In this document: positions 5,821 through 28,378 of the stretch, piece after piece | How the letters are laid out: each line of letters starts with the position of its first letter | Position numbering within the stretch: position 1 is the stretch's first letter | Source of the DNA: Streptosporangiaceae bacterium | GTDB taxonomy: Bacteria > Actinomycetota > Actinomycetes > Streptosporangiales > Streptosporangiaceae | DNA length: 32,122 bases | Reading direction: 5' to 3' | Assembly (NCBI GenBank): GCA_030041135.1 | Contig: JASHOL010000202.1 | Coordinates: 1-32,122 of the forward strand | The notes under the pieces: model-generated | The model's input: the letters and a program-made list of their open reading frames with translations, nothing else | Databases searched by the model: none | What the model was told of the DNA's origin: nothing | Position numbers and translations under genes: made by a program

Positions 5821-6432
5821 TGTGGCGCCGCCGCGGCGCGGCCTCATCCGCCGCGGCCACAAACCTGCTCACGCGCCCGTTGTGGGCGGCCACCACCCGT
5901 CGCGGTGTCCCGCGGTACCGCGCAGGCCACCGTGATGGACCGCGCGTCGACGTCAGCTTTGCGCTGCCGGATTGGGGGATGATGTCCTAGTGCGCGACAC
6001 CAGGCGCCGCTGACCCTCTCAGTAATGGATCGAATGTGACATCCACGGATCCAGGTGCCGCCGCTGAGGCCGTCAGTGAGGGCAGCGCCCTGCGCGAGCG
6101 ATATGCCGCGGGGCCGCCTGGCCTTGCCGCTGACGTCATGATGATCCGGGCACTCGCGCACGCAGAGGCGGGACGGTTCAATACGGCCGGAGCTACGCCA
6201 GGAAGGCGCGAACGCGAACGCGTTATTCTTTCGGCAATTGTGAAGTATGCGGTAAGATGGGGATGATTTAGAACGCCACAGGGGACCAGGCCGTTCGATT
6301 CCGGTTACGCCTCGCTGCGATGGCAACGCGCCGTGCGACCTCCATGGTCGCGGCTAGTCTGGCGCGTCGGCTGCCCACAGGACGTCCTCGTCCCCACGCT
6401 CACGCCAAGCCGCCTTACCTCTGGAGATGAGA
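5821..6432. other. Divergent intergenic region purU / GH5
   Basis: About 610 bp containing the promoters of two divergent genes. No conserved gene is recognised; a 76-codon frame at 6036-6266 is listed separately as doubtful. The last 200 bp are more AT-rich, with a weak promoter-like pair TTCGGC (6230-6235) and TAAGAT (6253-6258) at 17-bp spacing, about 175 bp before the GH5 start. No riboswitch or tRNA fold was seen. Confidence 0.4.
6036..6266 (+). CDS. Doubtful small ORF, 76 aa
   Basis: GTG start at 6036, stop at 6264-6266. The first two thirds show the high third-position GC of real genes here (for example the stretch encoding AEAVSEGSALRERYAAG), but the last 20 codons do not, there is no clear ribosome site, and no family is recognised. 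An overlapping minus-strand frame (5844-6326) looks like noise. It could be a lineage-specific small protein or the tail of a decayed one. Confidence 0.2.
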   Translation: MTSTDPGAAAEAVSEGSALRERYAAGPPGLAADVMMIRALAHAEAGRFNTAGATPGRRERERVILSAIVKYAVRWG

Positions 6433-15075: not shown

Positions 15076-15111
15076 CCCGGCGGCAATCTCAGCCTCATGC
15101 GATGAGGTACC

Positions 15112-16722
15112 TCATCCGTTGTTGTAGACGTACTGCCAGAGGATCTCCGGGTTCACGTCGGTGACTGGAAGCGGCGATGTCAGTCCGGGCCCGCCGACGC
15201 CATGGTCGGCGATGTCGTAACCGGCGATCGGGAACAGGAATGGCCCGTCGGCGTTCTTCGCGATGTACTCGGCCGCCTGGTCGTACAGCGCCTGGCGCTG
15301 GGCATCGTTGGTGGTCCCGGCCGCCGCGAGCAGCAGTCCGGTGAGCGTAGTGCTCCATACGCCGGTGAACGGCGAGGTCGAGCAGAACCGGAAGCAGACG
15401 CCGACCCCTGTGCCCGGGTCGAACGCGCCCGCAGTCTGCAGCATCGATTGCCACTTGCCCGCCTGGAACTGGCCGATCAGGCCGGTCAGGTCCCAGCTAG
15501 CGAGCGTGACCTTCATGCCGGCCGCCTGCCACTCGGTCTGGATGGCCTCGTTCAGTTCCGTGGCGGTCGGAACGCTGATCGTGCCGAGAGTGAAGCTCAG
15601 CCCGCCGAGCGACTTCACCAGGGCCTTGGCCTTCGCGAGGTCGTAGGTGATGTAGCCGGGCACTGTCTGCTCGTAGAACAGCCCTGCCGGTGCCGTGAAC
15701 GATTCCCCGACCGGGTAGGTATCGGCGAACAGGCTCTTGTCCAGCAAGGCTGCGTCCGTGGCGTAGTAGATTGCCTCCCTGGCCTTGATGTTGTTGAAGG
15801 GCGCGATCTTCGTATTCAGCTGGATGTCGTACGGCGATGTCGACGGCTCCGCAGTGGTGGTGAACTTCGCCTTGTACGCGCTGACCAGGGCCGGCGTCGA
15901 CATTCCCTCGTACGCCTGACCGGCACCCGACTCCATCGCGGTCAGCGCGTTCTCATCACTGCTCACCGGCTTGAACGTCAGCGAGTTCAGGTAGGGCAGG
16001 CCCTTCTGCCAGTAGTTCGGGTTCCGCTTGAGCACAAGCAGCGAGGACGGAGTGTCGGCCACGACCGTGAACGGGCCAGCCCCGACCGGCTTGAGCGCGA
16101 ACGCCTTCTCGCCCATCCTCTGGAGAGAGGTTGGCGAGGCGATCCAGTTGAATATGTCGCCCTGCAGGGCGTTGATGAACGGCGCATCGACGTAGGTCAG
16201 CGTCAGGGAGACGCTGTATGTGCCCGTCGCCTTGATCACTGGCTTGCCGATGAACACTGGCTTGCAGCTGCAGTTGCCGGCGAGGTCGCGGTCCCAGTTG
16301 TAGACGACCGCGCTGGCGTTGAACGGCGTCCCGTCGGAGAACTTCACGCCCTGGCGCAGTGTGATATTGACGGTCTTGCCGCCATTGGTAAAGGAGTAGC
16401 CGGTGGCCAGGTCGCCGGTTTCCTTACCGCCGGAGGTCAGCTCGAACAGCTCGCCGTAGATGGCGTCCATGTAACTCATGTTCGCCGCGCCATCGGTGTC
16501 GGTGGCCGGGTCCAGCCCGGGCCAGGCGCCGGCAAAGCTGTCACCCTCAAGCACGGTGAGCGACCCGCCGTGCTTGGGTGCCGAGCTTGAGGGTGTTGAG
16601 GTCGAAGGCTTCGACGAGCCGCAGCCGGCTAGGACAACCGCCACGACCGTCACGAGGATGACAGACAGCAGCCGCAGGGCGGACAGCCGCGCGTTGCGTC
16701 TCAGGCATGTCTTGGGTCTCAC
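15112..16722 (-). CDS. Extracellular solute-binding lipoprotein, family 5 (DppA/OppA type)
   Basis: A 536-residue lipoprotein that captures the solute for the importer. The start is GTG 16722 with GGGAGC upstream. A lipoprotein signal peptide (basic RRNAR, hydrophobic LLSVILVTVVAVV) ends in the lipobox LAGC, with Cys34 as the lipidated residue. A Ser/Thr/Pro linker follows. The mature part has family signatures GGSLTVLEGDSF, LFELTSGGKETGDLATGYSFTNGGKTVNITLRQGVKFSDGTPFNA split over 95-145, and KRNPNYWQKGLPYLNSL. This is the SBP_bac_5 (PF00496) layout. The family carries peptides, nickel, opines, sugars and many plant-derived amines, so the ligand is not predicted. First gene of a seven-gene operon. 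Confidence 0.93.
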   Translation of the reverse strand: MRPKTCLRRNARLSALRLLSVILVTVVAVVLAGCGSSKPSTSTPSSSAPKHGGSLTVLEGDSFAGAWPGLDPATDTDGAANMSYMDAIYGELFELTSGGKETGDLATGYSFTNGGKTVNITLRQGVKFSDGTPFNASAVVYNWDRDLAGNCSCKPVFIGKPVIKATGTYSVSLTLTYVDAPFINALQGDIFNWIASPTSLQRMGEKAFALKPVGAGPFTVVADTPSSLLVLKRNPNYWQKGLPYLNSLTFKPVSSDENALTAMESGAGQAYEGMSTPALVSAYKAKFTTTAEPSTSPYDIQLNTKIAPFNNIKAREAIYYATDAALLDKSLFADTYPVGESFTAPAGLFYEQTVPGYITYDLAKAKALVKSLGGLSFTLGTISVPTATELNEAIQTEWQAAGMKVTLASWDLTGLIGQFQAGKWQSMLQTAGAFDPGTGVGVCFRFCSTSPFTGVWSTTLTGLLLAAAGTTNDAQRQALYDQAAEYIAKNADGPFLFPIAGYDIADHGVGGPGLTSPLPVTDVNPEILWQYVYNNG

Positions 16723-16762
16723 GTGGACGCTCCCGCTATACAGATGCTCCGGGTACGAAAAG

Positions 16763-16778
16763 GCGGCTGCGCAGCCGC
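16763..16778. promoter_or_regulatory. Perfect 16-bp palindrome in the importer leader
   Basis: GCGGCTGC joined directly to GCAGCCGC, a self-complementary 16-mer 41 bp upstream of the binding-protein GTG. A symmetric operator between promoter and ribosome site, or a short leader hairpin, would both fit. Confidence 0.5.
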
Positions 16779-16819
16779 GCTGCCCGGCCCCGGGCGGTGC
16801 GGTTCGGCAGACCTCAGCG

Positions 16820-16839
16820 CAGTGAGCGTTGCCTCACTG
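16820..16839. promoter_or_regulatory. 7-6-7 inverted repeat, candidate operator
   Basis: CAGTGAG and CTCACTG flank a 6-bp spacer (CGTTGC). The site is 98 bp upstream of the binding-protein start and 319 bp upstream of the IclR start, in the shared divergent region. The spacing is suitable for a dimeric winged-helix regulator; the neighbouring IclR protein is the natural candidate. Confidence 0.5.
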
Positions 16840-16886
16840 ATTGACCCGCCCAGCTTCCGCGACTCGCCCGGCGTGCGTCCACAGCG

Positions 16887-16903
16887 CTTCCGCCGGGCGA
16901 AAG
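16887..16903. promoter_or_regulatory. 17-bp imperfect dyad in the divergent region
   Basis: CTTCCGCC and GGCGAAAG around a central G, 7 of 8 positions paired. The right half extends to GGGCGAAAG, also present in the purU/aacS hairpin. Upstream at 16852-16863 lies AGCTTCCGCGAC, a 12-mer repeated in the second divergent region at 26884-26895. The rest of 16723-17157 shows no gene; a lower-GC patch at 17030-17100 may hold the IclR promoter. Confidence 0.4.
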
Positions 16904-17157
16904 AGAGATGCGGGCCGCCCGGCGCCGGCCGAGACTGCTCTGGTCAGGCCCTTTGCCAGCGCCGGTCCCGCCGAGTCGTTTGCCGCCCGTTTCCGGCGCC
17001 GTTTCTGCGGGTTTCGCCCAAATCACTTACTTCTTGCGGAACCGGGCATCGCGTGCCAGCATTATTTCAGCCGCATTAATTGCTTCCCGCCCGTAACTGG
17101 TCCGGTCTGCTGACGGGCCGTCGCTCGGGAATATTGCGCTAATGGCGAGGGTGGAGC

Positions 17158-18030
17158 ATGCCGGATATGCTCGACGCCTCATTGGAGGCGAGCGCACCCG
17201 CTGCTCGCACGAACGCCGCCGGCCGCCTGCTCGCGGTGCTTGACGCCTTCGGGCCGCGCAGTCGCGCGCTATCGCTCAGCGAGATCTCGCGGCGGTCGGG
17301 GCTGAGCCTGTCCACCGCCCACCGGCTCGTGCACGAACTCGTGACCTGGGGCGCGCTGGAACGTGACCCCAACGGGTGTTACTCGATCGGGGTGCGGCTG
17401 CTTGAGCTCGCCGCGCTGGCCCCCCGCGGGCTTGACCTGCGTGAGGCCGCATTTCCTTGCCTGGATGAGCTCCATCACCGCACCCGCGGCAACGTGCATC
17501 TCGGCGTTCGCGACGGCATGCACGTCGTCTACGTCGAGGCCATCCGGGCCTGCGCTACGCATCCGACCAACGGCAAGGCAGGCGACCGCTGGCCCATGCA
17601 TGCCACCGGCACGGGCCTGGTGCTGCTCGCGTACTCCGACCGGGATTTCCAGGAGGAGGCGTTGCGGCGGCCGCTGGAGCGCTACACGCCGCTGACGATC
17701 ACCGACCCGGCTCAGCTGCGCCGCAAGCTAGCGCAGGTCAGGCAGTGCGGATACGCCGTGGCGGTCGGGCAGATCACGCTGCCGGACCTGGTGGTGGCGG
17801 TGCCAGTCCACGACCCGTTCGGCGGCGTGGCCGCGGCCATCAGCGTTGTCGTCGAGGCCGCACGAGCCAGGCCGCAGGCGCTGGCCAAGATGCTGACTGA
17901 CGCCTCCGGCGAGATCACCCGCCGGCTGGCGGTACAGTCACGCCAGCCGGTTCCCGGCGCCGGGCAGCGGCGCGTAGGCTTCACGCCGGTCGCAGCTGCC
18001 ATGCGTACCAGGGTCAGCGCGTCGGCTTGA
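17158..18030 (+). CDS. IclR-family transcriptional regulator
   Basis: A 290-residue DNA-binding protein. The N-terminal winged helix-turn-helix (about 20-85) includes LSLSEISRRSGLSLSTAHRL and HELVTWGALERDPNGCYSIG. The C-terminal effector domain (about 95-265) shows the IclR pattern: LDELHHRTRGNVHLGVRDGMHVVYVEAI, PMHATGTGLVLLAYSD, CGYAVAVGQITLPDLVVAVPV and DPFGGVAAAISVVV. Start ATG 17158 with GGTGGAGC upstream. IclR proteins bind as dimers or tetramers to palindromes and usually control a neighbouring catabolic operon in response to a small carboxylic or aromatic effector. It is divergent from the importer operon, and its 3' end overlaps the convergent amidohydrolase operon by 17 bp, so it lies between the two operons it probably controls. 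Confidence 0.92.
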   Translation: MPDMLDASLEASAPAARTNAAGRLLAVLDAFGPRSRALSLSEISRRSGLSLSTAHRLVHELVTWGALERDPNGCYSIGVRLLELAALAPRGLDLREAAFPCLDELHHRTRGNVHLGVRDGMHVVYVEAIRACATHPTNGKAGDRWPMHATGTGLVLLAYSDRDFQEEALRRPLERYTPLTITDPAQLRRKLAQVRQCGYAVAVGQITLPDLVVAVPVHDPFGGVAAAISVVVEAARARPQALAKMLTDASGEITRRLAVQSRQPVPGAGQRRVGFTPVAAAMRTRVSASA

Positions 18031-19018
18031 TGCCGAGCCACCGGAACGCGTTATTCCAGGTGATGTCCTCCAGCCATTGGCCCGGCAGCTCCAGCGACCG
18101 CAGCGTCAGCCCGGCCGGGTCCTCGCGCGGCATCGCCGGGAAGTCGGTGCCGACCAGCAGCCGGTCGGCGCCGAGCAGGTCGACGAGGAAGCGGATGGCG
18201 CGGCGGTCGAACACCAGCGAGTCGTAATAGAACCTGCGCGCGAACTCCAGCGGCGACGGCCCGTCGTCCTTCACGATCGCGCGCTCTGGCACTCTGGGCT
18301 CCTCGTTCCAGGTACCGCTCCAGAAGTACTGCGCCCTTGGCAGCATCAGCGGGAAGCCGCCTGCCGCATGGCTGAACGCGATGCGCAGGTCCGGGCATTT
18401 GGCCGCGGTTCCGCCGGTGATCAGGGACGCGGCGGCGAGCGCACCCTCAAGCCCTACCACGTATGTGCCGGCCGCGGCCAACGGCAGCCGGTCATTCGCT
18501 CCGGGCATCGCGTGGACGAATACGGCCAGGCCGAGTCGCGTCGCCTCGGCGAAGAACGGCAGGAACCGCTCGTCGCCAATCGACTCCCCGAGCACGTGCG
18601 AGGAGATCTCCACACCCGCTAGCCCGCGCTCGCCGATCGCCGCAAGCTCCGCGGCGGCAGCGTCGGGATCCTGCATCGGCACCATGCCGAGCCCGATCAG
18701 CCGGGCCGGTTCGGACGAGCACAGCTGCGCGGTGAAGTCGTTGACGTGCCGGGCCAGAGCCAGCCCGTCGGCAGCCGGCAGGTCGAAGCGCAGCAGCGGC
18801 GGCATCGGGGACAGCACCTCCGCGTCGACGCCGGTGGCGTCTTGCGCGGCGAGTCGCCGCTCCGCCTCAAAAAACACGTCCCTGGCCCGGAAGCGCATCG
18901 TCCCGAAGACCAGCGTCCGGTCCGTGCTGCCCTCGATCGGCTCCATCCGCGGGAAGCACGAAGGCGCGTCCGGCGGGTAGTCACGGGGCAGCAGGTGGGC
19001 GTGGGCGTCGACAAGCAC
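18014..19018 (-). CDS. Amidohydrolase-2 protein, ACMSD-like metal-dependent decarboxylase/hydrolase
   Basis: A 334-residue PF04909 barrel. It opens with DAHAHLLP, metal ligands His6 and His8. His169 (FVHAMPG), His217 (FSHAAGG) and Asp292 (GTDFP) complete the set at the spacing of alpha-amino-beta-carboxymuconate-semialdehyde decarboxylase, which removes CO2 from a C-C bond with zinc. Start GTG 19018 with GGAGG upstream. It is the last gene of the eight-gene operon, 25 bp behind a zinc alcohol dehydrogenase, and convergent with IclR. Its HxH motif differs from the EEA motif of the decarboxylase at 1546-2652. The reaction is probably decarboxylation or ring/lactone hydrolysis; the substrate is unknown. 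Confidence 0.82.
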   Translation of the reverse strand: MLVDAHAHLLPRDYPPDAPSCFPRMEPIEGSTDRTLVFGTMRFRARDVFFEAERRLAAQDATGVDAEVLSPMPPLLRFDLPAADGLALARHVNDFTAQLCSSEPARLIGLGMVPMQDPDAAAAELAAIGERGLAGVEISSHVLGESIGDERFLPFFAEATRLGLAVFVHAMPGANDRLPLAAAGTYVVGLEGALAAASLITGGTAAKCPDLRIAFSHAAGGFPLMLPRAQYFWSGTWNEEPRVPERAIVKDDGPSPLEFARRFYYDSLVFDRRAIRFLVDLLGADRLLVGTDFPAMPREDPAGLTLRSLELPGQWLEDITWNNAFRWLGIKPTR

Positions 19019-19043
19019 GGTTCAGCCTCCGGGAAACTCGGTG

Positions 19044-20150
19044 TCAGGCGGCGGCCGGGTGAACCGAGACGTGGATGGCGTGCTCGCCCGCCACGTCTCC
19101 GCCAAGCGTCTGAATCGCCAGCTCAGCGTCATCCAGCCCGAATGTGTGCGTATGCATCTTCTCCAGCGGGAAGCGCCGCGACTCGATCAGCGCGATCGCG
19201 TCGGACATGCCCTTGGCATCGACACCGAAGGCACCGCGCACCGTCAGCGCACGGTTGATGATGAGGTCCGTCCGCACCGGGATCTCGCGGTTGCCCTTCA
19301 GTCCCGCGAGCACCACCCGCCCGCCGCGGCGGGCGGCGAGCAGCGCGTCCGAGACTGGGCCGGCCGCCAGCGGCGTCAGCTCGAGCACGAGGTCGGCTAG
19401 CTCGCCGCCGGTGATCTCCTCGACCCGTTCGACGGTGTCTTCCGCCTCGTCGCCGTCGACCACGATCGTGTGATCGGCACCGAGTTCGCGGGCCAGGGCC
19501 AGCTTGTGCGCGTCCGCGGTCAGCCCGGTGATGATGATCGTCCCGGCTCCGGCCGCGCGCGCCGCCACCACGGCGGCGATCCCGCGCTGCCCGGCCCCGA
19601 GCACGAGCACGGTCTCGCCGACCCGCACCTCGCCGAGATGGCACGCCCAGCGCACTCCGGCGCCCATCGCGTTATACGTCGCAGCCAGCTCAGCGGGCAG
19701 GCCTGGGTCCATCTTGTGCAGCACCGACGTTGGCGAGATGTACATGTACTCGGCCAGCCCGCCCCACAGGGCCGGCTCGGTGTCGATGCCGGTTACGCCG
19801 TGGCCGTACTTGCGGTTACGGCAGAACTGATACCGCCCGGTCAGGCAGTCCTGGCAAGACCGGCACGGCACGATCACCTCGAGCGCGACCCGGTCGCCGG
19901 GCTGGACGCCCCAGCGGCTGGCCGCCAGCTCGCCGACCTCCTCGATGATCCCGAGCGGCTCGTGCCCAGGGATAAACGCGGGCCTGGGCCCGCCCAGGTG
20001 TCCCCGGTAGGTCTCAACGTCGCTGCCGCAGATGCCGTTGGCCTCGACCCGCAGCAGGCCGTCGTCGGGACCGGTCCGCGGCCGCGGAAACTCGCGCAGC
20101 TCGATCTGGCCAGGGCCGACCTGAACCGCAGCCCGCACCATGTCGGTCAT
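19044..20150 (-). CDS. Zinc-dependent alcohol dehydrogenase (MDR; threonine/sorbitol-dehydrogenase-like)
   Basis: A 368-residue medium-chain dehydrogenase. Catalytic zinc ligands: Cys41 (GICGSD), His63 and Glu64 (PGHE). The structural zinc loop is complete (Cys96, 99, 102 and 110 in CRSCQDCLTGRYQFC). The coenzyme domain has VLVLGAGQRGIAAVVAARAAGA; GAGQRG departs from the usual GxGxxG only in its middle. Unlike the two other alcohol dehydrogenases of the operon it has the sorbitol/threonine-type sequence and lacks the NDMA-type ending. Start ATG 20150, sharing a base with the TAA of the upstream gene (TAATG), with GAGGAG upstream. It oxidises an alcohol with NAD(P), or reduces a ketone; substrate unknown. 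Confidence 0.9.
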   Translation of the reverse strand: MTDMVRAAVQVGPGQIELREFPRPRTGPDDGLLRVEANGICGSDVETYRGHLGGPRPAFIPGHEPLGIIEEVGELAASRWGVQPGDRVALEVIVPCRSCQDCLTGRYQFCRNRKYGHGVTGIDTEPALWGGLAEYMYISPTSVLHKMDPGLPAELAATYNAMGAGVRWACHLGEVRVGETVLVLGAGQRGIAAVVAARAAGAGTIIITGLTADAHKLALARELGADHTIVVDGDEAEDTVERVEEITGGELADLVLELTPLAAGPVSDALLAARRGGRVVLAGLKGNREIPVRTDLIINRALTVRGAFGVDAKGMSDAIALIESRRFPLEKMHTHTFGLDDAELAIQTLGGDVAGEHAIHVSVHPAAA

Positions 20151-21265
20151 TACGTCTCCTCTGCACTTCGTCCGTGCTCGCCGGCATGGGCGTCGCTGGC
20201 ATTGCCGGGACCAACATTCGCCGCGTCTGGCCCGGTCACCTGGACGGCAGCCCCCGACCAGTCGGCGAACATGCGCACGACCATCGAGATGCCCGCGTTG
20301 CGCGCGCCGGCGACCGCGATCAGCAAGTTCCTGCGGTCGTCGCTGGGCAGCGTGCGCTGGAACTGCGTGGTCGGCTGTCCGTCGCCTGGTAGCCGGAGCC
20401 GGCCGTCGAGCCGGTCCTTTCCCGCTGCGGCCAGCTCCGCGGTGCTGCGGCCCGAGTGCCCGGCGAGCCAGGTCCTCACGTGCGCGCGGTCATACCCGGC
20501 CGCGGCGAGCAGCTGAGCGTGCTCGGGGCAGAATACGATCCCGGCCTGGGCATGCTCGAAGATCCACGAGCCGGACCGCCCGATCGTGTCGGCGAAGTCG
20601 CCGAGCAATTGCTCGGCGCTGCCGGTATGCCGGTTATCCACGAACTCGCAGGTGCGCAGCAGCGTCGCCGACACTGCGGACGCGCCGTCCGGCAGGCCTG
20701 CCTCGGTGGCGAGCGGAGGCCACGGACTCTCCTCCTCGTTCTCCGCGACGCAGATCGACCAGCGCCCCGGCAGCCCCTGGGTGGCCTGCTCCAGCTCGTG
20801 CGGGAGAATTCCGTACACGTTGCGCACGATCAGGCCGATCGCCCGCGGCACGGTGGCATTGGGCCGGAATCCGGGCCCGAAGGCGCCGCCGGCGCAATTG
20901 AAGCCGAGCTCGGTCCTGACCGGGCCATTGATCACGATCAGCGGGGCCGGCCCGCTCGTCGACTGCCATCCGCCGCCTCCGGTCGCGCGCTCGCGCATCA
21001 GCGCTTCCCAGGCGGCCAGCACGACAGGGAAGTACTCGGGCCGGCAGCCGGCCATCACCGCGTTGATCGCGGCCAGCCGCACCGTCACGACTCGGTCGAG
21101 CTGGGGCAGCTGCCCGATCACCTCATCCGGGCTGCGTCCGGTCGCCGCCAGGAACTTGTCCACCAGCGGCTGCGTGGCGGGCACCAGCGGCAGCCCGTCG
21201 GACCAGCCCTGCTCATAACAATGCTCGATGGCCGCCTGGGCGGCATCGGGATCGAGAACGGTCAC
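20150..21265 (-). CDS. Conserved partner of the UGSC-family protein, function unknown
   Basis: A 371-residue soluble protein with no signal peptide or membrane helix. Conserved-looking blocks are CYEQGWSDGLPLVPATQPLVDKFLAATGRSPDEVIG split over 16-50, AAINAVMAGCRPEYFPVVLAAWEAL (64-88), PLIVINGPVRTELGFNCAGGAFGPG, RPNATVPRAIGLIVRNVYG and CVAENEEESPWPPL. I recognise this pattern as an uncharacterised actinobacterial family usually encoded beside UGSC proteins; that association is from memory and should be checked. The last 30 residues are low-complexity. Its GTG overlaps the TGA of the UGSC gene (GTGA), so the two are coupled and probably form a complex. Notable residues are Cys16, Cys74 and the Cys of FNCAGG, which could take part in thiol chemistry with the CGSC protein. 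Confidence 0.75.
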   Translation of the reverse strand: MTVLDPDAAQAAIEHCYEQGWSDGLPLVPATQPLVDKFLAATGRSPDEVIGQLPQLDRVVTVRLAAINAVMAGCRPEYFPVVLAAWEALMRERATGGGGWQSTSGPAPLIVINGPVRTELGFNCAGGAFGPGFRPNATVPRAIGLIVRNVYGILPHELEQATQGLPGRWSICVAENEEESPWPPLATEAGLPDGASAVSATLLRTCEFVDNRHTGSAEQLLGDFADTIGRSGSWIFEHAQAGIVFCPEHAQLLAAAGYDRAHVRTWLAGHSGRSTAELAAAGKDRLDGRLRLPGDGQPTTQFQRTLPSDDRRNLLIAVAGARNAGISMVVRMFADWSGAAVQVTGPDAANVGPGNASDAHAGEHGRSAEET

Positions 21266-21855
21266 CGTGCCGTCCCTGAGGGACGACCGCCCGGATCAGG
21301 ATTGAGAACACCTGGCTGAGTGAGCATGGCCACTACCTCGGGCGCCAGCCGCTTTGCCCGCTGCCTGACCTGGTCGGCGTCGAGCACGGCAACCGGATGC
21401 TCGGTGAGGATGTACTGGTAGCCGCGGGCGCCGCGCATCGCCGCCATCGCATCCGCGGTCACCGCGAAGGCGTCGCTGCAGATCACCGCGGCGGGCATGC
21501 CAGCCTGCTCGAACACGATGCCGTCGGCGACGGCGGATGCGCTACAGGATCCGCAGTCGCCGACGCCGGTGATCACCGCGTCGCACTCCTGGCGGAACCG
21601 CTCGACCAGGTCGGCGGGGGCGGGCGCGGCGAAGTTCGGCTTGGTCTCGGCGATCGTCACGGACATGGAGTGATCGGCGGCCAGGAGGTCGCCGATCTCG
21701 GCTAGCAGCAGCGCGGCATTGTGCTTGGTGTTGTTCAGCAGGCCCACGCGCAGACCGCCCGGCTCCGGCCGGCGGGGCGCGAGCTCGAACCGTGCGGCGC
21801 TGGGCCTTGTGGCCGCGCCGGCCCGCCCGGTCGGGTCGAGGATGACATTGGGCAT
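21262..21855 (-). CDS. UGSC-family protein, cysteine form (Cys-Gly-Ser-Cys)
   Basis: A 197-residue protein. It begins with NVILDPTGR (3-11), then GGLRVGLLNNTKHNAALLLAEI (33-54), a segment VTIAETKPNFAAPAP, and the signature ITGVGDCGSCSASAVADG (95-112) with Cys101 and Cys104, followed by GMPAAVICSDAF. In relatives the first Cys can be selenocysteine (U-G-S-C), hence the family name. Here the codon is TGC, so no selenium machinery is needed. The family's reaction is not established; the C/U-x-x-C pair after a beta strand resembles redox-active sites of reductases such as the glycine and proline reductase families. Start ATG 21855. Coupled by a GTGA overlap to its partner, 16 bp behind an NDMA-type alcohol dehydrogenase. 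Confidence 0.8.
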   Translation of the reverse strand: MPNVILDPTGRAGAATRPSAARFELAPRRPEPGGLRVGLLNNTKHNAALLLAEIGDLLAADHSMSVTIAETKPNFAAPAPADLVERFRQECDAVITGVGDCGSCSASAVADGIVFEQAGMPAAVICSDAFAVTADAMAAMRGARGYQYILTEHPVAVLDADQVRQRAKRLAPEVVAMLTQPGVLNPDPGGRPSGTAR

Positions 21856-21871
21856 AACAGGGGACTCCCTC

Positions 21872-23011
21872 TCAGGGTTGCTGGTGCGGCTCGTGCTCGT
21901 GGACGATCACGCCGCGGATGTTCTTGCCGTCATTCATGTCCTGGTAGGCCTCGTTCACCTGCTCGAGCCGGTACTTGCGGGTGACCAGCTCGTCGAGCTT
22001 GAGATCGCCGGAACGGTACAGGCGCAGCAGCCTGGGGATGTCGTAGAGAGGGTTGCTGTCGCCGAACAGCGCGCCCCGTATCTGGCGCATGTAGCTGATC
22101 AGCAAGCCCGCGGGCAGGTGCACCGCGTGCTCGTCGAAATGGCCGACCGCCGTGATCGTGACCTTGCCGCCCTTGCCGGTCATCAGCACGGCGGCGTTCA
22201 CCATGTCTTCGGTGACCACCCCCGGCGTGAGGATGACGTGGTCGGCGAGCTGACCCCAGGTCGTCTCCACCACGAACTCGTGGGCGTCCTTTGCGGTCGC
22301 GAACGCGCGCGTCGCTCCGAAGACCGTCGTGGCCATCTCCCGCTTGAACTCGACCGGGTCGACGACGATCACGTCCTTCGCGCCGGCGAACCTCGCTCCC
22401 TGCACCGCGTTGCTGCCGACGCCGCCCGCTCCGAAGATCACGACGGTGTCGCCGGCCCCGACCCCGGCCGCGTGCACCGCCGACCCCCAGCCGGTGGGGA
22501 CACCGCAGCCAACCAGGCAGGCGATCTCCCAGGGGATCTCCTCCGCGAGCGGCACGCAGGCCCACTCGGACACGACCGCGTACTGCGAGAACGTTCCGAG
22601 CGTGCAGAAGCCGCCCAGGTCCTCGCCGCCCAGGTGGAACCGGAACGTGCCGTCCAGGAACATGCCGGTCCCCGCGTTGAGCCCCTTCACGCACATGTTC
22701 TGGTGGCCGGTCGAGCACGGGCGGCAGGCGCCGCAGGCCGGGATGTAGGAGCAGACGATCCGGTCGCCGGGCTTGACCCGGCGCACGTCAGGACCGACCG
22801 ACTCGACGATGCCCGCGCCCTCGTGGCCGCCGACGACCGGCAGCCGCACGCGGGCGTCCCCCGAGGTGATGTGGTCGTCGGAGTGGCACAGGCCGGCCGC
22901 CATCAGCTGCACCCGGACCTCGTGCGCCTTTGGGTCGTCGAGCTGCAGATCGGCCATTTCCCAGCCGATATGCGGGGCCCTGGCGATTGCGGCGCGGGTG
23001 GTGATCTGCAT
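21872..23011 (-). CDS. NDMA-type zinc alcohol dehydrogenase (mycofactocin-associated), copy 1
   Basis: A 379-residue MDR enzyme. Catalytic zinc: Cys42 (GLCHSDDH), His63 and Glu64 (GGHEGAG). Structural zinc: Cys93, 96, 99 and 107. Rossmann motif VVIFGAGGVGSNAVQGA. The pattern GLNAGTGMFLDGTFRFH and the ending MNDGKNIRGVIVHEH identify the nicotinoprotein/NDMA-dependent group, in which NAD(H) stays tightly bound and electrons are passed to mycofactocin or an artificial acceptor (family knowledge). Start ATG 23011 with GAGGAAGG upstream; an in-frame GTG at 23032 would place the ribosome site inside the gene. A second close homologue stands at the head of the same operon. It oxidises a primary alcohol to an aldehyde, which the operon's aldehyde dehydrogenase can take up. 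Confidence 0.9.
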   Translation of the reverse strand: MQITTRAAIARAPHIGWEMADLQLDDPKAHEVRVQLMAAGLCHSDDHITSGDARVRLPVVGGHEGAGIVESVGPDVRRVKPGDRIVCSYIPACGACRPCSTGHQNMCVKGLNAGTGMFLDGTFRFHLGGEDLGGFCTLGTFSQYAVVSEWACVPLAEEIPWEIACLVGCGVPTGWGSAVHAAGVGAGDTVVIFGAGGVGSNAVQGARFAGAKDVIVVDPVEFKREMATTVFGATRAFATAKDAHEFVVETTWGQLADHVILTPGVVTEDMVNAAVLMTGKGGKVTITAVGHFDEHAVHLPAGLLISYMRQIRGALFGDSNPLYDIPRLLRLYRSGDLKLDELVTRKYRLEQVNEAYQDMNDGKNIRGVIVHEHEPHQQP

Positions 23012-23028
23012 GGGCGGCGCTTCCTTCC

Positions 23029-24015
23029 TCACGCTGCGGTGCCAGCCCGAGACCTGGGAGACGCGGTGGCGAGCTTGGGAATGACCTCGGAGCCGATGAG
23101 CGCGATGTGATCCAGGTCGTGGATGTCGAAGATGTGCAGGTAAACGGTGTCGGCGCCGACGGCGGCGAGGTCGCCGATGCGATCGCTCAGCAGTCCGGGC
23201 GGGCCGATCAGCATCGACTCGCGGATGCGGGGCGAGCCGACGATAGCCGCCCGCCGCTCGGCCTCAGCCTGAGAGGACCCGATCGCCACCGGGATGAAGC
23301 CGGACAGCCGGGCGTCGCGTGGATCGCGTCCGATGGCCTCGCAGGCCCGGCTGAACACCGCGAATCGGTCGCGGGCCTCGGCGACCGTGCTGAGCGCCGA
23401 GTTGAACTCGGTCGCGAACCGCGCGGCGATGGCCGGCGTCCGGCGCGGCCCGCCGCCGCCCACGATGACCGGCGGGTGCGGCCGTTGTGTCACCCGCGGC
23501 GGCGTGCGGTTGTCCTGGACCTGGTAGTGCCGTCCCTCGAACGAGAAGCTGTTCTCCGGCCCGGCGAGCCACAGTCCCGTGATTATCCCGAGCTGTTCTT
23601 CCAGCCGGTCGAAGCGCTCCCCCATCGGGGGAAATGGAATCCCGAAGGCAGCATGCTCGCGCTCGTACCAGCCGGTGCCGATGCCCAGCTCCACCCGGCC
23701 GCCGCTCATCTGGTCAACCGAGGCCACGATGGCCGCGAGGAGGCCGGGAGCCCGGAAGGTCGCGGCCGTCATCAGTGAGCCGAGCCGGACCGTCGTCGTG
23801 TCGCGAGCCAGCCCGCCCAGGGTGGTCCAGCAGTCGGTCGGCTCGTAGTCGGGATCGTTCGGATCGACGCCGAACAGGTGGTCGGACCGGAAGAAGGCGT
23901 CGAAGCCCGCTCGCTCGGTCGCGAGCGCCAGCGCGAGGATGTCCTCGTAGCGCGCGCCGTGCCTGGGCTCCATCAGTACGCGCAGCCGAACCGGACCGCC
24001 GTGCGGGCCGGTCAC
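23029..24015 (-). CDS. LLM-class flavin/F420-dependent oxidoreductase
   Basis: A 328-residue luciferase-like barrel. Typical blocks: ILALALATERAGFDAFFRSDHLFG (26-49), TTTVRLGSLMTAATFRAPGLLAAIVASVDQMSGGRVELGIGTGWYEREHAAFGIPFP split over 73-128, and HPPVIVGGGGPRRTPAIAARFATEFN. GIGTGWYxxEHxAFGIPFP is common in the F420-dependent actinobacterial subgroup, but FMN use cannot be excluded. Members oxidise alcohols, reduce enoyl or imine bonds, or monooxygenate with a partner. Start GTG 24015 overlaps the TGA of the aldehyde dehydrogenase (GTGA), and its own stop lies just upstream of NDMA-ADH copy 1. Its role is probably one oxidation or reduction step of the same pathway. Confidence 0.9.
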   Translation of the reverse strand: MTGPHGGPVRLRVLMEPRHGARYEDILALALATERAGFDAFFRSDHLFGVDPNDPDYEPTDCWTTLGGLARDTTTVRLGSLMTAATFRAPGLLAAIVASVDQMSGGRVELGIGTGWYEREHAAFGIPFPPMGERFDRLEEQLGIITGLWLAGPENSFSFEGRHYQVQDNRTPPRVTQRPHPPVIVGGGGPRRTPAIAARFATEFNSALSTVAEARDRFAVFSRACEAIGRDPRDARLSGFIPVAIGSSQAEAERRAAIVGSPRIRESMLIGPPGLLSDRIGDLAAVGADTVYLHIFDIHDLDHIALIGSEVIPKLATASPRSRAGTAA

Positions 24016-25490
24016 GCGCTACTCCCGGTACCGCGCAGCGACACGGTCTTGACCTGGGTGTAGTCGAGTACCGAGTCGCCGCCCATCGTCCGTCCAAAGC
24101 CGCTGTGCTTGTAGCCGCCGAACGGCCCGCCGATTATGCCGGCGCCGAGCGCGGCGTTCACGTGCACCTGGCCCGCCTGCAGCTTGCGGCTCATCCGGAC
24201 CGCCCGGCCGACGTCCCTCGTCCAGACCGACGCGACGAGCCCGTAATCAGTCCCGTTCGCGACCGCGACCGCCTCGTCTTCGTCGGTGACCGTGAGAACC
24301 GACAGGACCGGCCCGAAGATCTCTTCCCTGGCGATGCGCATGCCCGGCTCGACCCGGTCGAACAGCGTGGCCTCGACGAAGTAGCCGCCCTCGTACCTGG
24401 CTCCGGCCGGGACGCCGCCACCGGTCACCAGTTCGGCCCCTTCTTCCCGGCCGAGGCGCAAGTAATCGAGCACTCGTGCGTGCTGCCTGGCGTTGATCAG
24501 CGGGCCCATCTGGACCTGCTCGTGCCATGGGCCAACCTGAACCTCCCGCATCCGCGCCGCCAGCCGGTCTACCAGCTCGCTGTGCACCCTCTGGTCGGCG
24601 ACGACGCGCGAGCCGGCCGCGCAGATCTGCCCGGTGTTGAGCGTGATGCCGGCGACCATCGCCGGGACGGCCGCGGCGAGGTCGGCGTCGGCGAACACGA
24701 CCTGAGGGGACTTGCCCCCCAGTTCCAGGTGCAGGGGCGTGAGGTTCCTGGCACAAGCCGCCATGACCGAGGCCCCGGTGGCGGGCGAGCCGGTGAAGCT
24801 CATCCGGCGAATGCCGGGATGCGCAGGGATCGCCGCGCCGGCCTCGGCGCCGTACCCGGTGACCACGTTGATGACGCCGGGTGGGATGCCTGCCTCCAGG
24901 GCGAGTTTCGCCAGCGCGAGCGCGGTCAGCGGCGCGTCCTCGGCCGGCTTGATCACGATCGTGTTGCCGGCGGCGATCGCGGGCCCGACGTCGGTGACGA
25001 ACATCGGCCCAGGTGCATTCCACGGGATGATGGCACCCACCACTCCGTAGGGCTCGCGCAGCGTCAGCCCGATGACCTCAGGCGACATGGTCGGCAGCGA
25101 CAGGCCGCTGACCTTGTCCGCCTGGCCGGCGACGAACCGCAGGATCCTGGCCATTGGCGGCGGCCCCCAGGACGGGTGGCCGACCTCGAGGCACTCGAGC
25201 CTCGTCACCTCGGCCGCGCTGGCATCAATGAGCTCCGCCCAGCGGGCCAGCAGCCGACCGCGGGTCGTGGCGTCGGTGTCGCGCCAGGCGGGAAAGGCCC
25301 GCTGCGCAGCCGTGACGGCCACGTCGACGTCCGCGCTCGCGCTGCGGGGCACGGCGGCGAGCACGTCACCGGTGGCCGGGTTGATCACGTCGATCGTCTG
25401 GCCGTCGCGGGCCGGGACCCACTGGTCCCCGATCAGCTGCGCGCCGCCAATGATCATCGGGCTCGTCGGGTCGGCGGAGATGATAGTCAT
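24012..25490 (-). CDS. Aldehyde dehydrogenase (NAD(P)+)
   Basis: A 492-residue ALDH-superfamily enzyme, oxidising an aldehyde to the acid. Landmarks: VVGAIIPWNAPG with Asn158 of the oxyanion hole, VIKPAEDAPL with Lys181, SFTGSPATGA (coenzyme turn, 231-240), ELGGKSPQVV with general base Glu256, NTGQICAAGSR with nucleophile Cys290, and EEIFGPVLSV. Length and motifs are normal, so it should be active. Start ATG 25490, 35 bp behind NDMA-ADH copy 2. Alternating ADH-ALDH-LLM-ADH gene order implies two alcohol oxidations feeding one aldehyde dehydrogenase, or a substrate with two oxidisable ends. Confidence 0.94.
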   Translation of the reverse strand: MTIISADPTSPMIIGGAQLIGDQWVPARDGQTIDVINPATGDVLAAVPRSASADVDVAVTAAQRAFPAWRDTDATTRGRLLARWAELIDASAAEVTRLECLEVGHPSWGPPPMARILRFVAGQADKVSGLSLPTMSPEVIGLTLREPYGVVGAIIPWNAPGPMFVTDVGPAIAAGNTIVIKPAEDAPLTALALAKLALEAGIPPGVINVVTGYGAEAGAAIPAHPGIRRMSFTGSPATGASVMAACARNLTPLHLELGGKSPQVVFADADLAAAVPAMVAGITLNTGQICAAGSRVVADQRVHSELVDRLAARMREVQVGPWHEQVQMGPLINARQHARVLDYLRLGREEGAELVTGGGVPAGARYEGGYFVEATLFDRVEPGMRIAREEIFGPVLSVLTVTDEDEAVAVANGTDYGLVASVWTRDVGRAVRMSRKLQAGQVHVNAALGAGIIGGPFGGYKHSGFGRTMGGDSVLDYTQVKTVSLRGTGSSA

Positions 25491-25525
25491 CGCCAGCTCC
25501 TCGGTGACGTCGGCGCCTTCATCGC

Positions 25526-26635
25526 CTAGTGCTCGTGCACGATCACGCCGCGGATGTTCTTGCCGTCGAGCATGTCCTGGTAGCCCTCGTTGACCTCGTC
25601 GAGCCGGTACCGGCGGGTGATCAGCTCGTCGAGCTTCAGGTCTCCCGACTGGTACAGGCCGATCAGCAGCGGCACGTCGACGAGCGGGCTGCAGCCGCCA
25701 TAGATGGACCCCTGGATCCGGCGCTGGTAGCCGATCAGCATGCCAGGGTTCTCATCAATCCAGCCCTTGCCGACTGCGGTGATCGTGACCTGGCCGGCCT
25801 TGCCGACGACGCTGATCGCGTCGTGGATGACCTCGTCGGTCAGGATGCCAACGGTGATGATCGCGTGATCGGCCAGCTCGCCCCAGGTGGTCTGGACGAC
25901 GAACTCGTGCGCCTCCTTGGCACTGGCGAACGTGTGGGTGGCCCCGAAGACGCCGGCCATCTCCCGCTTGAACGGCACGGGATCCACTACGATCACGTTC
26001 TTCGCGCCGGCCAGGCTCGCACCCTGCACGGCGTTGCTGCCGACGCCGCCTGCGCCGTAGATCACCACGGTGTCGCCTGGCCGGACGCCGGCGGCCCGCA
26101 CCGCCGATCCCCAGCCCGTTGGCACCCCGCACGCCACCAGCGCGGCGACGTCGAACGAGATTTCCTGCGGGATCTTGATGACCGAGAACTCGGAGACGAC
26201 CGCGTACTGCGAGAACGTGCCGAGCACGCATAGCCCGCCGAAGTCCTCGCCGTCGGCGTGGAACCGGAACGTGCCATCAGGGAACATCCCGGTGCCCGCG
26301 TTCTTGCCGGCGTCGCACAGGTTCTGGCGGCCGGTCGAGCAGTACCGGCACGAGCCGCAGGCTGGAATGAACGAGCACGTCACGTGGTCGCCCAGCACCA
26401 CCCTGGTGACGCCCTCGCCGACCGCATCGACTACCCCGGCACCCTCGTGCCCGCCCACCACGGGCATCCGCATCGGCGCGTCGCCCTTCTGGATGTGATC
26501 GTCGGAGTGGCAGAGCCCGGCCGCGTGGAACTTGATCCTGACCTCGTTCGCCTTCGGCTCGTCGAGCTCAAGTTCAGTGATCTCCCAGGGCAGGCCCGGC
26601 GCGCGGCAGACCGCGGCCCTGGTGGTCATGCTCAT
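25526..26635 (-). CDS. NDMA-type zinc alcohol dehydrogenase (mycofactocin-associated), copy 2
   Basis: A 369-residue enzyme and the first gene of the eight-gene operon. It aligns without gaps to copy 1 over the zinc region: Cys42, His63, Glu64 and structural Cys93/96/99/107. It also shares VVIYGAGGVGSNAVQGA, GKNAGTGMFPDGTFRFH and the ending MLDGKNIRGVIVHEH. Start ATG 26635 (or ATG 26629, MTTRAA) with GGAGAGGAA upstream; the open frame to 26761 is non-coding. It is clearly a paralogue, but differences near the substrate channel (for example IKIPQEISFDVAALVAC against VPLAEEIPWEIACLVGC) suggest another alcohol. NDMA-type enzymes normally need mycofactocin for turnover; no mft gene is in this window. 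Confidence 0.9.
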   Translation of the reverse strand: MSMTTRAAVCRAPGLPWEITELELDEPKANEVRIKFHAAGLCHSDDHIQKGDAPMRMPVVGGHEGAGVVDAVGEGVTRVVLGDHVTCSFIPACGSCRYCSTGRQNLCDAGKNAGTGMFPDGTFRFHADGEDFGGLCVLGTFSQYAVVSEFSVIKIPQEISFDVAALVACGVPTGWGSAVRAAGVRPGDTVVIYGAGGVGSNAVQGASLAGAKNVIVVDPVPFKREMAGVFGATHTFASAKEAHEFVVQTTWGELADHAIITVGILTDEVIHDAISVVGKAGQVTITAVGKGWIDENPGMLIGYQRRIQGSIYGGCSPLVDVPLLIGLYQSGDLKLDELITRRYRLDEVNEGYQDMLDGKNIRGVIVHEH

Positions 26636-26755
26636 GCGGATTCCTCTCCCTGGCGGTGGCGGACGGCGGGCAGGCCTGGCGGCGGCGTGATGGCGGGCGA
26701 GGTGCCCGTGGCACGTCCACGATGTGCTGGCACGGGCGGGCTCCGCCACACCCCT

Positions 26756-26776
26756 TTTCACTTCGCGGAAGAGAAA
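26756..26776. promoter_or_regulatory. 21-bp near-perfect palindrome, candidate operator of two divergent operons
   Basis: Arms TTTCACTTC and GAAGAGAAA around central GCG, 8 of 9 positions paired. It lies about 120 bp upstream of the NDMA-ADH operon and about 160 bp upstream of the CoA-transferase operon. It is the most symmetric element of the 298-bp divergent region. The core CGCGGAAG recurs at 26845-26852 and inverted at 26886-26893. A looser hairpin (GCCCGTG / CACGGGC, 26704-26737) lies in the leader of the minus-strand operon. TTAGCT (26882-26887) and TAAGAT (26904-26909), 16 bp apart, are a possible weak promoter for the plus-strand genes. Confidence 0.6.
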
Positions 26777-26933
26777 CGGCTGCCGCGCGGGTTCGGGGGG
26801 CGTGCCTCGAGGGTCAATATGTCGGCCACGGCAAGCTTCTGCTACGCGGAAGTCCAGGTTCCGGGGCTGCCCGCCACCGTGTTAGCTTCCGCGACATCCG
26901 GACTAAGATGCCAGGTCCGCGGGAGGACGCTGC

Positions 26934-27683
26934 GTGATCGACAAGTTCCGTGCCGATCCGGTGAGCGCGCTGGCGCCTATCCGCTCGGGTGCCTCGGTTG
27001 CCGTCGGCGGGTTCGGCAGCTCCGGCCGGCCCGACACGCTGCTGGACGCGCTGTGTGACCTGGACCGCCGCGACCTCCACGTGATCGTCAACAATGTCGG
27101 CAGTGACTTCACCGGCATCGGGCGGCTGCTGGCCGAGGGCCGCATTCGCCGGCTCACCGCCTCGTTCCCGGTACTTCCAGACTTTTATGACGAGTACTTC
27201 GCGGGGCGAGTCGAACTGGAGCTGATCCCGCAGGGAACGCTCGCGGAGCGGCTGCGAGCGGGCGGTGCGGGCATTCCGGCCTTCTACACGCCGTCCGGGG
27301 CGGGCACGATGCTAACCGACGGAACGTTTCCGCTCGGCTACGACCGCGACGGCCGGGTCACCGAGCGCATGCGGGCGCGGGAGCACCGCGAGTTCAGCGG
27401 TCGCGAGCACGTACTCGAGTTCGGCATTGTCGCGGACTTTGCCCTGGTCAAGGCACACCAGGGCGACCGGAAGGGAAACCTGAGATTCCGGCTGTCGGCG
27501 CGGAACTTCAACCCGCTGGCCGCGATGTCGGGCCGGTACACCTTCGCCGAGGTGGAGCACCTGGTCGCGGCCGGCGACCTGGCTCCCGACGACGTCCACC
27601 TGCCAGGCGTGTTCGTCGATGAGGTCCTCCTGCGGTCGGAACTTTCGCCCAGGCAGCCGGCGACACCGCGGGCCGGGTCATGA
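26934..27683 (+). CDS. scoA: 3-oxoacid / acyl CoA-transferase, subunit A
   Basis: A 249-residue alpha subunit of a two-subunit class I CoA-transferase. It has the family's N-terminal pattern IRSGASVAVGGFGSSGRPDTLLDAL (16-40), NNVGSDFTGIGRLLAEGRIRRLTASF, IPAFYTPSGAGT and DFALVKAHQGDRKGNLRFRLSARNFNP. It moves CoA from a donor such as succinyl-CoA to a 3-oxoacid or another short carboxylate. Start GTG 26934 with GGGAGGA upstream. It overlaps subunit B by 4 bp (ATGA), so the two are made together. Divergent from the NDMA-ADH operon; the acid made there could be the CoA acceptor, which is inference. The closest named classes are ScoAB and PcaIJ, not separable by eye. Confidence 0.9.
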   Translation: MIDKFRADPVSALAPIRSGASVAVGGFGSSGRPDTLLDALCDLDRRDLHVIVNNVGSDFTGIGRLLAEGRIRRLTASFPVLPDFYDEYFAGRVELELIPQGTLAERLRAGGAGIPAFYTPSGAGTMLTDGTFPLGYDRDGRVTERMRAREHREFSGREHVLEFGIVADFALVKAHQGDRKGNLRFRLSARNFNPLAAMSGRYTFAEVEHLVAAGDLAPDDVHLPGVFVDEVLLRSELSPRQPATPRAGS

Positions 27684-28378
27684 CCGAGGCAGCCGCGCCG
27701 GCGGCGGTCAGCGGGCGGACCAGGGAGGGCCTGGCGCAGCGGCTAGCCGCCGACCTGCGCGACGGCTATGTCGTCAACCTGGGCGTGGGGATTCCGCTGC
27801 TGGTGCCGCGGTTCATCCCGGCGGGCGTCGAGGTGATCCTGCACGCCGAGAACGGCGTGCTCGGCCTCGGACCGCCCGCCCCGCCCGGCCACGAGGACCC
27901 GGATCTCACCGACGCCGGCAAGCAGCCGGCGACGGTCATCACCGGTGCGGCCATTGTCGACTCCGCGCTGTCGTTCGCGGTGGTTCGCGGGGGTCACCTT
28001 GACGTGACCGTGCTCGGCGCGTTGCAGGTATCCGGCCGGGGCGACCTGGCCAACTGGTACGTGCCCGGCCGGCATCCGGCGGTTGGCGGCGCGATGGACC
28101 TGGTGGCCGGCGCGCGCGAGGTCTGGGCCGTGATGGAGCACGTCGACCGCGAGGGACGGCCGAAGATCGTTGAGCGATGCACGTTCCCGCTGACCGGCCG
28201 GCGCGTCGTCACCAGGGTGTACACCGACTTGGCCGTGTTCCACGTCGTGGACGGGCAGATGCGCCTCACCGAGTGCGCACCGGGCGTGTCGCCGGCGGCG
28301 GTGCGGGAGCGCACGGCGGCGCCGTACATCGAGGACCTGGCCGGCGGCCTCGGTCCCGGCTCGCAGCCGCGCGACTAG
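27680..28378 (+). CDS. scoB: 3-oxoacid / acyl CoA-transferase, subunit B
   Basis: A 232-residue beta subunit carrying the active site: NLGVGIPLLVPRFI (33-46) and HAENGVLGLGP, where Glu57 of ENG is the catalytic glutamate that forms the glutamyl-CoA intermediate. Further family blocks are GGHLDVTVLGALQVSGRGDLANW, GGAMDLVAGAREVWAVMEH and VVTRVYTDLAVF. Normal length and intact active site. Start ATG 27680 overlaps the stop of subunit A. An amidohydrolase gene follows after 8 bp. Confidence 0.92.
   Translation: MTEAAAPAAVSGRTREGLAQRLAADLRDGYVVNLGVGIPLLVPRFIPAGVEVILHAENGVLGLGPPAPPGHEDPDLTDAGKQPATVITGAAIVDSALSFAVVRGGHLDVTVLGALQVSGRGDLANWYVPGRHPAVGGAMDLVAGAREVWAVMEHVDREGRPKIVERCTFPLTGRRVVTRVYTDLAVFHVVDGQMRLTECAPGVSPAAVRERTAAPYIEDLAGGLGPGSQPRD

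Follow-up and report, generated by a model that had tools for sequence, protein, structure and literature searches.

What does a protein of the UGSC family do in the midst of genes for alcohol and aldehyde oxidation? The question is raised by contig JASHOL010000202.1 of a Streptosporangiaceae bacterium (assembly GCA_030041135.1), whose full length of 32,122 nucleotides is the stretch of DNA analysed here and is called the window. Eight co-directional genes on its minus strand, from 18014 to 26635, form a predicted operon, in which the fifth gene encodes a UGSC-family protein of 197 amino acids (21262–21855, minus strand) and the sixth a partner protein of 371 amino acids (20150–21265, minus strand). 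A UGSC-containing selenoprotein family was described in 2008, without a function in the sections of that paper used here (PMC2398784), and the excerpted text of a 2026 review counts UGSC among families whose functions are largely uncharacterised (PMC13188914). No UGSC reaction is given in the portions of PMC2398784, PMC13188914, PMC9312934, PMC7539508 and PMC5029168 covered by the literature search, which lay mostly outside subscription journals. The answer developed below takes the UGSC pair for a self-contained enzyme of two components that was recruited into a catabolic regulon, one that also includes a CoA-transferase unit and a peptide-type transporter. Tentatively, and as a possibility short of a probability, this enzyme would perform a dithiol-dependent reductive cleavage step in an inducible catabolic pathway. 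The observations beneath this answer are the near-constant adjacency of the two genes, their natural fusion, their shared distribution among genomes and the TGA codon found at the position of Cys101 in most relatives.

UGSC and Its Partner Protein

The window protein exceeds the cut-offs of both models of the family, PF24696 (204.6 bits, cut-off 25) and NF041046 (170 bits, cut-off 125), in scans with NCBIfam and Pfam profiles at a reporting limit of E 1e-3. It shares its motif and its partner neighbourhood with the selenocysteine (Sec) members of the family. It differs from them in carrying cysteine and in belonging to an operon with mycofactocin-type dehydrogenases; the name of NF041046, which speaks of a "(seleno)protein", allows both forms. 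The partner gene overlaps that of UGSC by 4 bases, and its product matches no Pfam or NCBIfam family at the same limit. A scan of 42 members of the partner family at E 1 returned scattered weak matches only, and sequence searches of solved structures with UGSC, the partner and a GrdB-like set found no convincing relative, the best weak match having an E of 0.0077.

In loci retrieved with UGSC, 78 of 83 UGSC genes have a partner gene of the same orientation no more than 1 kb away. These stretches come from two sets of non-own matches: 40 of 44 in the first, where two fragments and two matches below the cut-off were set aside, and 41 of 62 listed in the second, mostly the better scoring ones; loci retrieved with the partner, the best 80 of 493, are excluded from the count. 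Three of the five exceptions (L074, L076 and L244) sit no more than about 770 bases from a contig end, L223 holds a partner fragment, and L240 has no partner in its stretch. The same bond appears across 149 genomes, the bacterium's own included, where UGSC occurs in 25 and the partner in 26, with 25 shared; the odd genome has a partial partner. Furthermore, UGSC and partner are fused in 12 single frames with no stop apart from the Sec codon. One such fusion was modelled by AlphaFold with a pLDDT of 90.1 and a pTM of 0.90, the latter supporting a defined arrangement of the two halves. A UGSC/Unknown_1 fusion of GOS metagenomes, as described in the sections used of PMC2398784, joins UGSC to a conserved unknown domain; the fusions found here join the partner family, and the two are likened by description only. 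The original prediction held that UGSC and its partner act together, and the adjacency and the fused frames support this at the level of sequence. Eight partner residues, D23, G24, A66, A72, G73, G114, R141 and E175, are present in all 148 aligned pairs.

Some pairs are adjoined by a short NifU-like CxxC protein (10 matches in 9 of 123 sources, and 15 of the 42 loci of the set from the bacterial order), which is a candidate electron donor or scaffold. Such genes stand beside a Sec paralogue from the window's own genome (L004:18817-19026) and beside pairs at L085:9164-9376 and L074:471-680. Pfam NifU scores are 20.5 to 24.5 in three proteins, those of L085 and L074 among them, against a cut-off of 27, and the L004 protein has no match. 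Two tandem partner genes follow a NifU-like CxxC protein at L083:8518-11053, where no UGSC was found. In five Poribacteria loci (L117, L122, L130, L138 and L139), the partner is missing some 30 profile positions close to its C-terminus, and the stretches contain no UGSC gene; these partners may be a UGSC-free branch of the family.

Selenocysteine and Cysteine Forms

Translation of UGSC confirms the motif first proposed as Cys101-x-x-Cys104, which reads Cys101-Gly-Ser-Cys104 (codons at 21544–21555, minus strand). The window protein is thus a Cys form: codon 101 is TGC, and AGT is absent from codon +7. Two more UGSC genes of the same genome, on contigs C467 and C245, have TGA at the motif position, and the genome also carries tRNA-Sec (71.4 bits, cut-off 47) and SelB (247.2 bits, cut-off 242.25). 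The assembly is a draft of 6.58 Mb in 528 contigs, 91.9% complete and 7.9% contaminated, so that loci outside this contig may conceivably belong to a contaminant.

Among 160 UGSC genes gathered, the codon at the position of Cys101 is TGA in 123, TAG in one and Cys in 35, with one unread. With Sec read as Cys, all 148 aligned pairs have both motif cysteines. Of 124 Sec forms, 102 have AGT as codon +7, as against none of the 35 Cys forms, one of which (L224) was read at a different CxxC. This loss fits a lost SECIS loop, since a SECIS would constrain codon +7. A tree of the 148 concatenated pairs places the window in a clade of 22 pairs, all of the Cys form (support 1.0), which is nested in a clade of 36 (support 0.978) that includes Sec members. 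Weak nodes occur within the Cys clade (0.43) and where it joins the clade of the Sec paralogue (0.54). The single TAG belongs to Geodermatophilus ruber DSM 45317 (L084:9744-9746), where it is followed in frame by GGC TCC TGC. This suggests UAG-encoded selenocysteine in that organism, a use of the codon that has reportedly been seen in Geodermatophilus.

Predicted Fold and Possible Remote Kinship

The AlphaFold model of UGSC (pLDDT 90.8) is a five-stranded α/β structure of alternating strands and helices, with strands at residues 36–41, 65–71, 93–99, 122–127 and 149–151 and helices at 47–62, 81–90, 102–117 and 128–140. The CxxC lies at the start of the helix that follows the third strand. A thioredoxin fold was dropped on account of this arrangement, and the predicted fold appears not to be thioredoxin-like. 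Foldseek and VIA-align returned generic Rossmann- or flavodoxin-like matches for UGSC, a list in which the lack of thioredoxin is not itself a test of fold. The top VIA-align match, a chain of the methyl-coenzyme M reductase activation complex (Z 10.5, root-mean-square deviation 3.2, 131 aligned), was not used, as a designed protein ties with it at Z 10.2. For the fusion, the VIA-align matches cover mostly the UGSC half, and class I fumarase (Foldseek E 1.3e-4) was not accepted as a relative, its TM score being 0.18.

UGSC was also compared with the GrdB and PrdB proteins of glycine, sarcosine, betaine and D-proline reductase (PF07355). Both have a strand, a U/C-x-x-C at the start of a helix, the helix and a further strand, and both exist in Sec and Cys forms. 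When the Sec halves of UGSC and of GrdB/PrdB-like proteins from the phylum were aligned by hhalign, P was 1.1e-5 and the probability 82%. The UGSC–GrdB/PrdB score is 32.2, whereas 36 families of neighbouring genes reach 26.2 at most, 60 column shuffles 19.9 at most, and two control sets of Asp/Glu racemases 20.3 and 24.0. The GrdB-like sequences may run past true stops, TGA having been read as Sec throughout. These alignments are suggestive of a remote kinship between UGSC and GrdB/PrdB. There are also differences: UGSC has no PF07355 match at E 1e-3, the partner shows no GrdE or PrdA family in Pfam scans, and UGSC is set among mycofactocin- and F420-type dehydrogenases. Genomes of the phylum also encode small proteins resembling PrdB/GrdB (L165 to L176, e.g. 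L166:1501-2196), in which the motif is UPLC, CPLC or similar; they match chiefly the second half of PF07355.

The Predicted Operon and Its Conservation

The eight genes were predicted to follow one another with overlaps of 1–4 bases or gaps of 16–36, and they do so with overlaps of 1–4 and gaps of 16–35 bases. In order of transcription, the spacings are +35, −4, −4, +16, −4, −1 and +25 bases, minus denoting overlap. The first gene encodes NDMA-dependent alcohol dehydrogenase 1 (25526–26635, minus strand; TIGR03989 512.0 bits, cut-off 440); its profile scan used a longer start at 26761, the start at 26635 coming from later gene calling. It is followed on the same strand by an aldehyde dehydrogenase (24012–25490; PF00171 532.9 bits), an LLM-class F420-dependent oxidoreductase (23029–24015; TIGR03560 273.6 bits, cut-off 231.4) and NDMA-dependent, mycofactocin-type alcohol dehydrogenase 2 (21872–23032; TIGR03989 500.8 bits, cut-off 440). 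Downstream of UGSC and its partner lie, again on the minus strand, a zinc alcohol dehydrogenase (ADHz; 19044–20150; PF08240/PF00107), which falls under the curated cut-offs of all 20 NCBIfam models listed for it, and an amidohydrolase 2 family protein (AH1; 18014–19018; PF04909 99.1 bits), which the original prediction labelled ACMSD-like and which matches no model in the NCBIfam scan.

The label "mycofactocin-type" proved apt, as both NDMA-dependent enzymes exceed the TIGR03989 cut-off and the genome encodes MftC (652.6 bits, cut-off 265) on a different contig. A search of the genome for PqqD gave no match, PqqD being a test of a pathway other than mycofactocin. In the TIGR03989 match and in MftC, the system resembles the NDMA-dependent, mycofactocin-associated alcohol dehydrogenases of actinobacteria; it differs in that the window's enzymes are joined to a UGSC pair. 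The text seen of PMC7176365 names mycofactocin and a selenoprotein; its subject is 2-hydroxyisobutyrate, and the word UGSC is absent from that text.

How general is this union? Outside the window, 122 loci from many phyla, two of them from the window's own genome (L004, L005 and L042 to L161), were searched by tblastn at E 1e-5. Relatives of the two NDMA-dependent dehydrogenases were found in three and two loci, of the aldehyde dehydrogenase in four, of the LLM enzyme in eight and of the zinc alcohol dehydrogenase in one; AH1 was found in none of the 122. In the phylum, PF24696 is matched at E 1e-3 by 29 of 396 genomes, 27 of them over the cut-off, and the window's oxidoreductase types seldom occur close to those pairs. 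The analysis therefore rejected a general link between UGSC and NDMA-dependent, LLM and aldehyde dehydrogenase genes. The original prediction had tied the UGSC pair to alcohol-oxidation genes and had named pairs without these oxidoreductases as the finding that would speak against it; such pairs are what neighbourhood comparison found outside the window's bacterial order, so that the tie fails as a general rule and stands within the order. Because most pairs elsewhere lack these genes, the UGSC pair is best seen as a free-standing unit, of which this operon is one use.

Within the order, the UGSC pair is co-conserved with the catabolic genes. The sub-clade of the window (support 0.985) comprises 17 loci, the window included; within the retrieved stretches, 12 of these contain both AH1 and the zinc alcohol dehydrogenase and 11 an NDMA-dependent dehydrogenase, and two further loci have AH1 and the zinc enzyme elsewhere on their contig, at distances of about 17 and 30 kb. 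Of the 149 genomes, 21 have AH1 (E <= 1e-60) and 19 the zinc alcohol dehydrogenase (E <= 1e-90); UGSC is present in 20 of the former and 18 of the latter, with hypergeometric P values of 3e-19 and 1e-16 for these co-occurrences, relatedness being ignored. Gene order differs between genera and among loci (L213, L215, L217, L228, L235, L239, L242 and L248) while the set of genes stays together. At L248, from another family of the order, the same module contains a Sec-type pair that is 38–43% identical to the window's and falls outside the 80-member clade around it. Sec and Cys forms of UGSC thus appear to serve one pathway. A relative of the zinc alcohol dehydrogenase with 73% identity and an internal TGA (G484:C13:335192-336292) comes from a genome without a UGSC match and is possibly a relic of the module.

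Neighbours near UGSC pairs (135 genes out of 317) differ only weakly from those further off (129 out of 174) in a sample limited to products of 120–460 amino acids. SDR enzymes number 8 near and 5 far, amidohydrolases 7 and 4, TctC proteins 6 and 2, and ABC ATPases 3 and 6. Class III CoA-transferase (7) and LLM (4) occur near, and neither is among the first 25 far families.

The Surrounding Module

The gene unit extends beyond the eight genes, as a divergent CoA-transferase unit, an IclR-family regulator and a peptide-type ABC transporter recur in relatives. The divergent unit, on the plus strand, encodes CoA-transferase subunits A (26934–27683; PF01144 187.6 bits), which recurs at the same-genus loci L213, L219 and L230, and B (27680–28378; PF01144 127.8 bits), followed by a second amidohydrolase 2 family protein (AH2; 28387–29271; PF04909 155.5 bits). 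The regulator (17158–18030, plus strand; PF01614 and PF09339) is convergent with the operon. Beyond it lies the oligopeptide-type transporter (11006–16722, minus strand; PF00496, PF00528 and PF00005 with PF08352), made up of a solute-binding protein (15112–16722), permeases (14041–15075 and 13167–14060) and ATPases (12112–13182 and 11006–12241); both it and the regulator recur with the module. An SDR enzyme, an AMP-binding enzyme of acyl-CoA-synthetase type and a third amidohydrolase lie on the transporter side of the operon. The contig as a whole is a catabolic island.

GCGGAA-type sites are conserved in the putative divergent promoter region (26636–26933) and between the genes for the solute-binding protein and the regulator (16723–17157), as judged from three and four sequences. 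These two regions hold 6 of the 24 GCGGAA sites of the window, a total at chance frequency (24.6 expected); two longer patterns of this type stand at 5 versus 3.5 and 6 versus 3.1. Since the motif was picked after inspection, its role as an operator is a lead only.

Further out, a protein with the MetE-type domain PF01717 (9772–10962) has relatives near UGSC in L220, L243 and L244, and one with ACT and formyl-transferase domains (4885–5847) has a relative in L228; this recurrence hints at one-carbon metabolism. A cellulase-type (PF00150) protein with a ricin-type lectin domain (6493–8013, plus strand) is apparently unrelated to the module.

A Possible Reaction and Its Alternatives

The pathway proposed for this bacterial order, presumably inducible, would run as follows. 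The peptide-type transporter would import a compound that the mycofactocin-type and zinc alcohol dehydrogenases, the aldehyde dehydrogenase and the LLM enzyme would oxidise, while the amidohydrolases and the CoA-transferase would carry the products onward. The reaction of the UGSC pair would fall on a substrate with an activated carbon and a leaving group. The partner would bind this substrate through its invariant D23, R141 and E175, and the thiolate of Cys101, a selenolate in most relatives, would attack the carbon and displace the leaving group. Cys104 would then attack the sulfur– or selenium–carbon adduct, freeing the reduced product and leaving a Cys101–Cys104 disulfide. A small dithiol donor would reduce the disulfide; some loci have the NifU-like CxxC protein beside the pair. 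The net result would be a dithiol-dependent reductive cleavage, GrdB/PrdB-like in its working and with another partner. Precedents are the Sec-dependent reductive cleavages of glycine and D-proline reductase with their selenium–carbon chemistry, according to the part of PMC10298544 consulted, and a GrdB-like fluoroacetate reductase proposed in the excerpt of PMC10838667. The idea of a thiol-based cleavage at Cys101-x-x-Cys104, already present in the original prediction, gains weak independent support from the remote similarity to GrdB/PrdB.

Several results weigh against this reading. At full length, hhalign of UGSC with PF07355-type GrdB/PrdB-like proteins gave a P of 4.2e-4 and a low probability of 34%; UGSC matches PF24696 only, with no PF07355 match at E 1e-3, and the window's genome has no PF07355 match either. 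The structure searches with Foldseek and VIA-align yielded generic α/β matches only. No GrdE or PrdA family of glycine or proline reductase was found in the 42 partners at a Pfam E <= 1. In 6 of 148 pairs, Ala or Gly replaces the near-invariant Cys74 of the partner, so that a pyruvoyl group derived from this Cys is not general. Of the 80 loci retrieved with the partner, 14 lack a UGSC gene within 1.5 kb; in two of these UGSC lies about 5 kb off, in another two the partner sits at the end of its contig, and five are from Poribacteria. No NifU-like gene was found within the window. RNA folding downstream of TGA revealed no significant hairpin in three examples (z −0.52 and −0.71), the trace at codon +7 being the better sign. 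Finally, bacterial selenoenzymes of this kind are mostly anaerobic, as stated in the consulted part of PMC10298544.

Other roles for the pair have to be weighed against reductive cleavage. UxxC is a typical redox motif, and a thioredoxin-like fold was assumed likely in the 2008 GOS paper, in the sections used (PMC2398784). The pair could accordingly belong to redox protection, as a peroxidase or a disulfide or quinone reductase that maintains the dehydrogenases, or the cofactors they use, in the reduced state and leaves the pathway's carbon skeleton untouched. Such a role is unlikely: the five-stranded α/β model looks unlike thioredoxin, and the very tight tracking of UGSC by AH1 and ADHz across genomes would be odd for general protection. 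Class III CoA-transferase (7), amidohydrolase (7) and LLM (4) among the 135 near genes also point away from it, although their enrichment over far genes is weak. The CoA-transferases lend themselves to a different proposal, in which Cys101 accepts an acyl or alkyl group that is then handed on to water, to CoA or to a different thiol. The pair would then be a thiol or selenol transferase, hydrolase or dehalogenase without net reduction, feeding the CoA-transferase. PF01144-type CoA-transferases do lie near pairs of the clade (the window, L085, L232 and L243), in addition to the class III enzymes (7 of 135 near genes), but relatives of the window's CoA-transferase occur in 1 of the 122 other loci, and the invariant CxxC cysteines (148 of 148) and the retention of Sec fit redox turnover better. 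This proposal is improbable as well.

A role in making or repairing a cofactor or metal centre, through sulfur or selenium transfer or in the maturation of F420, mycofactocin or zinc enzymes, would give the NifU-like protein an aiding part. It would suit the mycofactocin- and F420-type families of the window and the pairs that have this protein beside them (9 of 123 sources, 15 of 42 order-set loci). Against it are the remaining sources, which have no NifU-like gene, the NifU scores below the Pfam cut-off and the 124 of 149 genomes without UGSC, genomes in which enzymes needing such cofactors were not surveyed; a role of this kind is very unlikely. Least likely of all is a recent assembly without joint function, in which horizontal transfer of one island placed the genes together. 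The patchy distribution of UGSC (25 of 149 genomes) and the lack of these neighbours for most pairs elsewhere would agree with it, but the set stays together while its order varies among loci, and the profile match still holds at separations of about 17 and 30 kb.

Significance

To the known UGSC family, this analysis adds a near-constant partner, natural fusions, a predicted fold that looks unlike thioredoxin and a remote link to selenoenzymes of reductive cleavage, along with a natural exchange of Cys for Sec inside one conserved pathway. An orphan family thereby becomes testable: besides a regulator and a transporter, the module includes dehydrogenases for which substrates can be screened. 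The Cys-based version in the window would allow work on the reaction in the absence of selenium. It is conceivable, if rather unlikely, that UGSC and its partner represent a new class of two-component selenoenzyme that performs substrate-specific reductive bond cleavage in aerobic catabolism, a class found in many phyla and often with several copies per genome. If the proposed mechanism is true, chemistry of the GrdB/PrdB kind would enter catabolic pathways whose setting seems to be aerobic.

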